A stretch of 36,591 nt of DNA. Source: Actinomycetota bacterium (GTDB lineage Bacteria; Actinomycetota; Thermoleophilia; Miltoncostaeales; Miltoncostaeaceae). Made by a program: the position numbers and the translations under genes. The DNA lies in the NCBI GenBank assembly GCA_963169235.1, contig CAUJCX010000017.1:1-36591 (forward strand), written 5' to 3'. Of this stretch, positions 24,438 to 27,312 are shown in pieces. The notes below the pieces were generated by a model that was given only the letters and a program-made list of their open reading frames with translations, made no database searches and had not been told where the DNA came from. Positions within the stretch are counted from its first letter, which is position 1; every line of letters starts with the position of its first letter.

Positions 24438-25387
24438 CCGCCCGCCCTGCGCACGATGGCGCGGAAGCGGGCCGAGTGGGCGCGCGGGTTGACGTCGATC
24501 TCCTCGGGCGAGGGCTTCACCGCGCGGGTGGTGATGGCCGCCGCCGCCGACTGCCGGCCGCAGCCGCACACGGGCATGCCGGGCGGGCAGATGCAGCCGC
24601 GCACGCGGTCGCGCATGAAGCGCTTCACCATGCGGTCCTCGAGCGAGTGGAAGCAGATCACGCCCAGGCGGCCGCCGGGCGCCAGCAGGGCGAACGCCTC
24701 GTCGAGGCCCTCCTCGAGGACGTCGAGCTCCTCGTTGACCACGATGCGCAGCGCCTGGAACACGCGCTTGGCGGGGTGCCCGCCGGCGAACAGGGCGGCG
24801 GTGGGCACCGCGGCCTTCACCACCTCCACCAGGTCGGCGGTGGTGGTGATGGGCTGCTCGGCGCGCCTGCGCACGATGCCCTTGGCGATGCCGCGCGCGT
24901 ACCGCTCCTCGCCGTACTCGCGCATCCAGCGGGTGAGGTCGGCCTCGGACGCCGTGGCCACCACGTCGGCGGCGCTGCGGTCGCGGCCCGGGTCCATGCG
25001 CATGTCGAGGGGAGCCTGGCGGCTGTACGAGAAGCCGCGCTCGGGGCGGTCGATCTGCATGGACGACAGGCCCAGGTCCATCAGCACCACGTCGGCACGG
25101 ACGCCCTCCGCGTCCAGCCCGGCGAGCGCGTCAGCGAAGTTGGCGCGCACGAACCGGGTGTCGCAGGCGGCGTTCTGGGCGAACGTGGCGAAGTGCGCGC
25201 GCACGTCGGGGTCCTGATCGATGGCGATGTACAGACCGTTCGGCCCCAGGTCGGCGCTCAGCACCCGCGCGTGACCACCGGCGCCGAACGTGCAGTCGAC
25301 CACGGTCTCGCCCGGCCGCGGCGCCAGCAACTCGGCGATCTCGTCCGCCAGGACGGGCGCGTGCGCCACCGCGTCAGGAGCGGCCAT
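24434..25387 (-). CDS. rsmH: 16S rRNA (cytosine(1402)-N(4))-methyltransferase
   Basis: A 317-residue SAM-dependent methyltransferase (MraW) modifying the decoding centre of 16S rRNA. The N-terminal H-x-P-V-L-x-x-E-I, the SAM site V-D-C-T-F-G-A-G-G-H, M-D-L-G-L-S-S-M-Q and the late F-H-S-L-E-D-R are all present. A Cys cluster C-I-C-P-P-x-x-P-V-C-G-C-G near residue 275 is typical of the family. ATG 25387 gives a 14-base overlap with mraZ; longer in-frame starts inside mraZ would add sequence without homology. Confidence 0.96.
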   Translation of the reverse strand: MAAPDAVAHAPVLADEIAELLAPRPGETVVDCTFGAGGHARVLSADLGPNGLYIAIDQDPDVRAHFATFAQNAACDTRFVRANFADALAGLDAEGVRADVVLMDLGLSSMQIDRPERGFSYSRQAPLDMRMDPGRDRSAADVVATASEADLTRWMREYGEERYARGIAKGIVRRRAEQPITTTADLVEVVKAAVPTAALFAGGHPAKRVFQALRIVVNEELDVLEEGLDEAFALLAPGGRLGVICFHSLEDRMVKRFMRDRVRGCICPPGMPVCGCGRQSAAAAITTRAVKPSPEEIDVNPRAHSARFRAIVRRAGG

Positions 25388-25826
25388 CAGCAAGCTTCCG
25401 GGCATACCTCTCCACCCCCCCTCCGCGCATCGCGGCAAAGCGCTCGTCAAGACGTTCCGGGTTCCACAGCTCGAGGTATCCCCGGTTCCCCACCACCTTC
25501 AGCTCCGTGTCGATCCCGGCGTGCTCGCGCTGCGCCTGGTTGAGCGACACGCGCCCCTGCTTGTCGAGATCCATCTCGACGGCGCCGGCCAGCAGGAACC
25601 GGCTGAGCCAGCGGCTGTTCTCGTCGAGCACGTCCAGGTTTCCGAACACCTGCTCGACCAGCGCGTCCCAGTTCTCGGCCGGGCACGCGATGAGGCATCC
25701 ATCCAGCCACCAGCCGACCACCGCGCCCCGGTCGAGGAACGGCGCGCGCAGACGCGCCGGAATCGCGAAGCGGAAGCGGTTGTCGAGCTTGCACTCAATG
25801 ATGCCCCCCTGTGAGCGGTGGTGCAT
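25374..25826 (-). CDS. mraZ: Transcriptional regulator MraZ
   Basis: A 150-residue protein with two AbrB/MazE-like half-domains, each with a D-x-x-x-R signature: L-D-N-R-F-R-F-A-I-P-A near 14-24 and L-D-K-Q-G-R-V-S-L near 87-95. MraZ forms a ring oligomer, binds GTGGG-type repeats before its own gene and controls the dcw operon. Here three such boxes lie directly upstream. ATG 25826 is chosen because TACGGT precedes it by 7 bases (leaderless). It is the first gene of the dcw cluster and diverges from the SOS-type gene at 26013. Confidence 0.95.
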   Translation of the reverse strand: MHHRSQGGIIECKLDNRFRFAIPARLRAPFLDRGAVVGWWLDGCLIACPAENWDALVEQVFGNLDVLDENSRWLSRFLLAGAVEMDLDKQGRVSLNQAQREHAGIDTELKVVGNRGYLELWNPERLDERFAAMRGGGVERYARKLADGRS

Positions 25827-25829
25827 GTT

Positions 25830-25855
25830 CCCCACCGTACCCCACATTCCCCCAC
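25830..25855 (-). promoter_or_regulatory. mraZ promoter embedded in a triple MraZ operator
   Basis: On the minus strand three GTGGGG boxes (25855-25850, 25845-25840, 25835-25830) follow one another at exactly 10-bp intervals, placing all three on one face of the helix. The leaderless -10 box TACGGT (25839-25834) lies between the second box and ATG 25826 and shares two bases with the third box. Known MraZ operators are three or four such repeats, so occupancy here would block the promoter directly. Confidence 0.85.
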
Positions 25856-25870
25856 AAAACAACGCACACG

Positions 25871-25970: not shown

Positions 25971-26012
25971 GAACACTTGTTCGCGTCCGAGGCCCGAACT
26001 ATTGTTCGCCAC
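25971..26012 (+). promoter_or_regulatory. SOS-type promoter with two LexA boxes
   Basis: Two GAAC-N4-GTTC palindromes: GAACACTTGTTC (25971-25982) and GAACTATTGTTC (25996-26007), the second extended to a perfect CGAAC-N4-GTTCG. This is the LexA box of actinobacteria and Bacillus. The -35 TTGTTC (25977-25982) lies in the first box, the -10 TATTGT (26000-26005) in the second, with a 17-base spacer. ATG 26013 is 7 bases after the -10, so the mRNA looks leaderless. LexA bound to either box would cover a core promoter element. Confidence 0.85.
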
Positions 26013-26360
26013 ATGACATCGATCGCTTCCGCCCCCACCCCCTCGGCCGCTCGGCCCGCGTCCCGCCCTGGCGGCCACCTGCGCGTGGTCACCACGCCGC
26101 CGCGGCGCACGTCCGTGCTGGCCGGTGCCGGCCTGTATCTGGCCGGGTTGTCCGCCGGATCGCTGCTGGTGGCCGCGACGACCGCGGTCTCCGGGGGCTC
26201 GGGCGCGGTGTTCGCGCTGGCCCTGGCGGCGAGCGCCGGTGTCGCCAGCGTGGTGACGGCCCGCGTCGCGCGGACGCGCAACGCCGCCCGCGCAGCGCGC
26301 GTGGCGCGTCCCCGCCCCATCGCCGCGCCCGCCCCGCACGCGTTGCGCCGAGTGGCCTGA
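26013..26360 (+). CDS. Putative SOS-inducible small membrane protein
   Basis: A 115-residue protein of no family I recognise. A polar N-terminus of about 33 residues (with H-L-R-V-V near 22-26) is followed by two hydrophobic helices (about 34-56 and 64-83) joined by a short Gly/Ser turn, then an Arg/Ala/Pro-rich basic tail. The promoter holds two LexA boxes. LexA-controlled small membrane proteins that halt division are known (YneA in Bacillus, DivS in Corynebacterium, Rv2719c/ChiZ in Mycobacterium, SidA in Caulobacter). No LysM domain is present, unlike YneA. Divergence from mraZ at the head of the dcw cluster fits a division-checkpoint role. That role is inference; the SOS control is well supported by sequence. 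Confidence 0.75.
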   Translation: MTSIASAPTPSAARPASRPGGHLRVVTTPPRRTSVLAGAGLYLAGLSAGSLLVAATTAVSGGSGAVFALALAASAGVASVVTARVARTRNAARAARVARPRPIAAPAPHALRRVA

Positions 26361-26424: not shown

Positions 26425-27312
26425 ATGGGTTCCCCGCCTCCCGCCCGCCGCATCGCCGCGATCGACGTGGGCACGAACACGATCCGCATGCTCGTGGCCC
26501 GCTTGCAGGACGGGGTGCCGAGCGCCCTCGCCTCCGCGTCGTCGATGACCGGCCTGGGCGCCGGGCTGGGCGAGACGGGCCGCATCTCCGGCGACGCGCT
26601 GGACGCCGCCGAGCGCACGCTGTCGGCCATGGTGAGCGAGGCGCGCGGCCTCGAGGTGGACGAGGTGATGGTGGCGTGCACCGCCATCGCGCGCGACGCC
26701 GCCAACGCCGACGAGCTGCTGGAGCGCATCCGGCGTGCCACCGACGTCGAGCCGCGCGTGCTGTCGGGCACCGAGGAGGCCAACCTCACGTTCCTGGGGC
26801 TGCTCAGCGCGGGCGTCAGCGAGCCGCTTCTGGCCGCCGACCTGGGCGGCGGCAGTCTCGAGCTGATGGGCGGCAGCGCACCGTCGCCCGACTGGGCCGT
26901 GTCGCTGCCCCTCGGCGTGCGCCTCTTGACCGAGCGGTACCGGCCCTCCGACCCGCCCGAGCTGGACGTGCTGGGCCCGATGGTGGCGCACGCGCGCAGC
27001 CTCATCGACCCGGTGGCGGCCGACCACCCGGCCACCTCGTGCGTGGTGGCGGGAGGGACGCCGCTGGCGCTGGCGCGCCTGGCGCGTCAGGCCGAGCTCG
27101 ACCGCGACGCGCTGGTGCGGTGCGTCGAGGCCCTGGCGGGCTCGCCCGCCGACGACCTGGCGGCCCACGAGTCGATCGACCCGGCACGCGTGCGCATGTG
27201 CTTCGCGGGCGCCGCGGTGATGGAGGCCGTGCGCCGCGCGTTCGACGTGCCGTACGTGACGGTCAGCACCGCGGGCCTGCGCGAGGGGCTCGTGATCGAG
27301 GCGTGCATATGA
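26425..27312 (+). CDS. Short Ppx/GppA family phosphatase (exopolyphosphatase)
   Basis: A 295-residue member of the ASKHA-fold Ppx/GppA family, which hydrolyses polyphosphate or pppGpp. The phosphate loop I-D-V-G-T-N-T-I-R-M near 13-22, D-L-G-G-G-S-L-E-L in the middle and V-V-A-G-G-T-P near 207 are the family signatures. It lacks the C-terminal HD-type domain of E. coli Ppx, like the short actinobacterial forms. It heads a six-gene operon with CHAD proteins, which bind polyphosphate, favouring an exopolyphosphatase role. Its stop overlaps the next start as ATGA. Confidence 0.88.
   Translation: MGSPPPARRIAAIDVGTNTIRMLVARLQDGVPSALASASSMTGLGAGLGETGRISGDALDAAERTLSAMVSEARGLEVDEVMVACTAIARDAANADELLERIRRATDVEPRVLSGTEEANLTFLGLLSAGVSEPLLAADLGGGSLELMGGSAPSPDWAVSLPLGVRLLTERYRPSDPPELDVLGPMVAHARSLIDPVAADHPATSCVVAGGTPLALARLARQAELDRDALVRCVEALAGSPADDLAAHESIDPARVRMCFAGAAVMEAVRRAFDVPYVTVSTAGLREGLVIEACI

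Follow-up and report, generated by a model that had tools for sequence, protein, structure and literature searches.

A short gene divergent from mraZ and preceded by two boxes of the LexA type raises the question of what the SOS response might control next to a division cluster. The locus lies in the window analyzed here, the whole stretch of 36,591 nucleotides, which comes from a genome of the class Thermoleophilia; the window's own family within this class is designated f1, and its genera are numbered g1 to g12. The reading that we favor, with a probability of roughly 0.58 and on the basis of sequence, is that positions 26013-26360 encode a LexA-repressed, damage-induced membrane hairpin that delays division and that would replace in f1 a YneA/ChiZ-like TM-LysM protein. 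The features on which the argument draws are these:

25374-25826, minus strand: mraZ, which opens the division and cell-wall cluster and is transcribed away from the small gene (PF02381, E 8.4e-16; alignment)
25827-25862, minus strand: leaderless promoter of mraZ, TTGTTT-N17-TACGGT-N7-ATG (from the sequence; retained in front of mraZ in most f1 genomes)
25971-25982, no strand: LexA-type box 1 (GAACACTTGTTC), an exact match, its 3' half TTGTTC (25977-25982) serving as -35
25996-26007, no strand: LexA-type box 2 (GAACTATTGTTC), containing TATTGT (26000-26005) as -10
26013-26360, plus strand: leaderless gene for a 115-residue, two-helix membrane protein (open reading frame; dN/dS; profile search)
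26076-26108, plus strand: motif HLRVVTTPPRR, residues 22-32, roughly xLxxVxxP before helix 1 in most members (by eye, from sequences and alignment)
26115-26192, plus strand: predicted membrane helix 1, residues 35-60, with invariant G45 and G49 (alignment, hydropathy, AlphaFold2)
26202-26306, plus strand: predicted helix 2, residues 64-98, continuing into the basic tail (hydropathy, AlphaFold2)
26343-26357, plus strand: C-terminal LRRVA (alignment; RRAA in g2, g6, g7, g9 and g10)
26425-27312, plus strand: Ppx/GppA phosphatase gene, next downstream (PF02541, E 2.9e-37)

The preliminary description had proposed a product of 115 residues with two helices and a basic tail, and the reading frame, the hydropathy profile and the structural model all bear this out. 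Hydropathy is maximal at residues 35-53 and 65-83, and AlphaFold2 places helices at residues 35-60 and 64-98 with moderate confidence (mean pLDDT of 75). The ratio dN/dS ranges from 0.14 to 0.53 in 12 pairs of f1 members, which indicates purifying selection, and the frame is therefore a real gene. An alignment of 21 f1 members leaves few invariant residues (G45, G49 and R84); what these proteins of 95-147 residues have in common is a motif resembling xLxxVxxP together with arginines N-terminal to helix 1, a pair of hydrophobic stretches and a basic tail, their tails retaining a recurring motif, and only the member from genome G007 presents a single clear hydropathy peak. Since arginines and other basic residues lie on both helix flanks, the positive-inside rule suggests that both termini are probably cytoplasmic. 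The C-terminal RRAA or a variant of it occurs in half of the genera, being missing in g3, g5, g8, g11 and g12, and this RR(A/V)A ending is a possible proteolysis signal.

No family of Pfam or NCBIfam scored above cut-off for the two-helix protein, so that the label 'undescribed' given to it earlier holds as far as tested. Several weak matches were considered and set aside: DUF6251, which matched the window protein far below cut-off; SepX/GlpR, matched by one of the 21 members at E 0.0045 and dropped after ten rescanned members failed to reproduce it; and Phage_holin_3_6 (PF07332), matched by one of the 21 at E 0.0028 and not by the window protein. A LysM domain was found in none of the 21 members, and no RNA family of Rfam matched at the locus. 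The relatives themselves were collected in f1 by searching the DNA for the paired boxes, a tblastn search of genome contigs with the 115-residue protein having returned no relatives because the sequence of this small protein is too divergent; most of the weak single-sequence protein matches did not lie near mraZ and were discarded.

The regulatory region is equally explicit. As first described, the gene has two boxes 25 bp apart, a figure that can now be specified as the distance from start to start, with a gap of 13 nt between them, and the second box is embedded in a perfect CGAAC-N4-GTTCG (25995-26008). The promoter originally proposed also matches the sequence in all its parts, with TTGTTC at 25977-25982, a spacer of 17 nt, TATTGT at 26000-26005 and 7 nt to the ATG at 26013; the transcript of the small gene is thus predicted to be leaderless. 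These hexamers are weak against the E. coli consensus, and a sigma-70 scan of the locus based on that consensus, which is uninformative for actinobacterial promoters, returned no promoter. Apart from these two boxes the window has no GAACN4GTTC site; shuffling predicts 0.16 such sites and reaches two in 3 of 100 shuffles. The tandem pair is unique in its own 2.94-Mb genome, in which the reversed control for the tandem pattern has no match.

The preliminary description named absence of the boxes from orthologous loci as a refutation, a check that SOS control passes. Among the 35 f1 genomes with a readable mraZ upstream region, 34, representing 11 of 12 genera, carry an exact box before the divergent small gene; one of these boxes, in G015, lies beyond the 450 bp scanned upstream of mraZ and was seen in separate pattern scans. 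The exception is G004, in which the small gene is present without a recognizable box, although lexA has one, a point against the favored reading. The exact pair is found in 12 of 42 f1 genomes and five of the 12 genera (the tandem control pattern being absent from f1). A single mismatch marks the second box of g8 and g9 (GTAC-N4-GTTC, with GTAC for GAAC), which turns the -10 into TACATT, or TACGTT in two g9 genomes. The promoter is kept nonetheless: a -10 of the form TAnnnT, followed 6-8 nt later by the ATG, is found in all 33 f1 loci measured, and the spacer from box 1 spans 16-18 nt in 32 of them, G007 being the exception with an exact box inside the spacer. Over the 45 bases 5' of box 1, drift has reduced identity between the eleven genera compared to 29%, in an alignment where the box arms are identical by construction because it was anchored on exact boxes.

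A LexA protein (PF01726, E 2.1e-24) with an Ala-Gly site for cleavage and the serine motif GESM, both read by eye, is encoded on contig C41 of the genome, and LexA was detected in 39 of 42 f1 genomes, with GAACN4GTTC upstream of lexA in all 30 that were read. In the window's own genome, the motif precedes lexA, recA, dnaE2, an imuB-like gene, dinB and uvrB. Its exact sites number 28 in this genome, as opposed to 10 for the reversed control pattern, and several of the remaining sites are hence likely to be due to chance. Judged from its boxes, control of the small gene by the SOS response is close to certain. Two observations on the wider network may be added. Locus L224 (G000:C35:204905) has a box, CGAACACATGTTCG, before a short reading frame starting MFASGGQDVEPQLCLFGG, which could be a further SOS gene and of which the first 70 residues matched no Pfam family. 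In family f4 (L202-L208), lexA and dnaE2 have tandem boxes of their own, and a TATA-like -10 lies between these boxes or abuts them.

A main result of the comparison across the class is the complementary distribution of two small membrane proteins. Of 399 Thermoleophilia genomes, 150 contain the tandem-box pattern and three match the control. At the loci read in f3, f8 and f11, these boxes mostly drive a leaderless protein of 79-89 residues with one TM and a LysM domain; leaderless TM-LysM genes under tandem boxes (L067-L070, L073-L074, L077-L093, L197, L199-L201) often have their ATG inside box 2. Some f8 loci and most of those in f2 and f4 are instead lexA or dnaE2, and f2 has TM-LysM genes about 1 kb from its lexA boxes. 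The TM-LysM proteins of the class match PF01476 in 15 of 15 cases, and their profile scores strongly in 48 of 122 non-f1 genomes (f2, f3, f8 and f11); within f1 it yields no credible case, the sole match being a 475-residue frame at E 1.3e-6. The two-helix profile, on the other hand, detects the protein in 33 of 37 f1 genomes, always beside mraZ, and in none of the 122 non-f1 genomes of the class. This profile was built from f1 members, which flatters its E-values within the family, and it recovered g9 genomes outside the profile too. Four genomes were missed: in G001 and G035 the contig breaks off within the gene, and in G022 and G064 mraZ was not found either. Nor did 396 genomes sampled from the phylum yield a two-helix protein beyond f1. 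Neither protein was found in f4, f6, f7, f9 and f10, which implies that an inhibitor of this kind is not obligatory.

This pattern is consistent with an SOS division inhibitor having given way to an unrelated protein that has neither LysM nor an outer domain, although it probably reflects a single evolutionary event and not many independent ones, and the ability of the sister-family TM-LysM proteins to block division would itself follow by analogy with YneA and ChiZ. Of the original proposal of a new division checkpoint protein without LysM, the missing domain is confirmed in the 21 members, and the case for a checkpoint is circumstantial, drawing on the complementarity with TM-LysM proteins under SOS boxes. 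In the scheme we envisage, LexA bound to the boxes would block RNA polymerase, and its RecA-stimulated cleavage would free the promoter. The hairpin would then bind a membrane protein of the divisome, for which FtsW or its partners are the likeliest guess, and stall septation. After repair, LexA would re-repress the gene, and proteolysis would remove the protein, with the C-terminal RR(A/V)A as a possible signal. Lacking both LysM and an outer tail, the protein, if it does stop division, must act from within the membrane or the cytoplasm. More tentatively, and at slightly less than even odds, it may define a new class of SOS checkpoint, a two-helix hairpin with cytoplasmic tails only that replaced a YneA/ChiZ-type inhibitor in this one actinobacterial family and, having no peptidoglycan-binding domain, halts septation from inside the membrane.

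Inhibitors of division within the SOS response are repeatedly non-homologous (SulA, YneA, SosA, SidA), and SidA is a single-TM peptide of 29 residues. The f1 protein shares with YneA of Bacillus, ChiZ (Rv2719c) of Mycobacterium and DivS of Corynebacterium a small size, a membrane location, SOS control through the same type of LexA box and a likely divisome target. It differs from them in having two helices instead of one and neither LysM nor an extracellular C-terminal domain, no sequence relation was found, and its gene is divergent from mraZ on contig C17, whereas theirs, like that of SosA, lie beside lexA. Through its TM, YneA binds FtsW and so prevents synthesis of the septal wall, but it requires the outer LysM as well (PMC13396833), and by analogy this argues against a division role for a protein without an outer domain. 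SosA of Staphylococcus nonetheless inhibits division without LysM, from a gene beside lexA, through one TM and an essential outer C-terminal part (PMC6851548); the two proteins are alike in SOS control and in a C-terminus that may govern turnover, and unlike in that the f1 protein has a pair of helices and probably keeps both tails in the cytoplasm. SidA of Caulobacter, a small SOS membrane division inhibitor with a predicted FtsW contact (PMC13396833), comes from another phylum and is unrelated in sequence. A parallel within the class is offered by the TM-LysM proteins of other Thermoleophilia families, which are also small, leaderless and membrane-bound with LexA-type boxes over the promoter, but which have 79-89 residues in the f3, f8 and f11 copies sampled, contain one TM plus LysM, often start in box 2 and occupy a different locus.

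Other explanations of the locus must be weighed against this reading. That the boxes are chance palindromes before a non-coding frame is very improbable: a high G+C content does yield many long open frames, and shuffled windows occasionally hold two boxes, but the idea is refuted by boxes that persist in 11 genera while their flanks have drifted, and the absence of tandem control matches from f1 and a dN/dS below 0.55 also speak against it. It is also improbable that mraZ and the division cluster, and not the small gene, are what the boxes control. Three f8 mraZ upstream regions with one LexA-type box and no small gene speak for such an arrangement; in f1, however, the box keeps a near-constant distance to the ATG of the small gene and lies anywhere from 105 to more than 450 bp from mraZ. 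Moreover, mraZ in the window is preceded by a conserved promoter of its own, 108 bp from box 1, whose hexamers are interleaved with three TGGGG repeats of the MraZ type; the small gene is hence the more plausible target of the boxes, even if they may have a shared effect on mraZ too. Outside f1, a box within 700 bp of mraZ is missing from 32 of the 34 upstream regions, and the remaining two belong to f8. In that family (L324:1290, L326:1036, L327:1439), mraZ itself may be under SOS control. The Ppx/GppA gene, which also adjoins the locus in g2, g6, g11 and g12 and serves as a synteny marker, is probably outside the system.

If the small gene is the target, its product could have some other role in the envelope or in support of repair, such as adjustment of cell-wall synthesis or membrane protection under damage. 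We consider this unlikely, though less so than the remaining alternatives. SOS control and a membrane nature fit it equally well, there is no functional domain to consult, and the mraZ neighborhood alone is uninformative about the function or target of the protein; against it, the f1 protein takes the slot of a box-controlled small membrane protein held by TM-LysM elsewhere in the class, and several of the small SOS membrane proteins studied are division inhibitors (PMC13396833, PMC6851548). Growth arrest of the TisB or holin type, in which SOS-induced depolarization of the membrane leads to dormancy, would likewise suit a small, hydrophobic, box-controlled product, one relative in 21 of which approaches Phage_holin_3_6. 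We deem it quite unlikely, for TisB has about 30 residues and the f1 proteins, with 95-147 and motif-bearing tails, are unlike it; a leaderless transcript would leave no leader for RNA control of the TisB/IstR type, and the locus matched no RNA family.

The hairpin that delays division remains our preferred reading. Boxes, promoter, protein and the alternative protein are all readable from sequence, and the comparison within the class suggests that one SOS division inhibitor was swapped for another. Streptomyces has no recognized SOS division inhibitor (PMC9380542), and candidates without LysM are hence worth knowing. Our literature search returned no paper on SOS control in the Thermoleophilia. 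If the reading proves true, this locus would provide a first look at such control in the class, and a membrane-only inhibitor of the divisome would be useful for asking which divisome contact suffices to halt septation.
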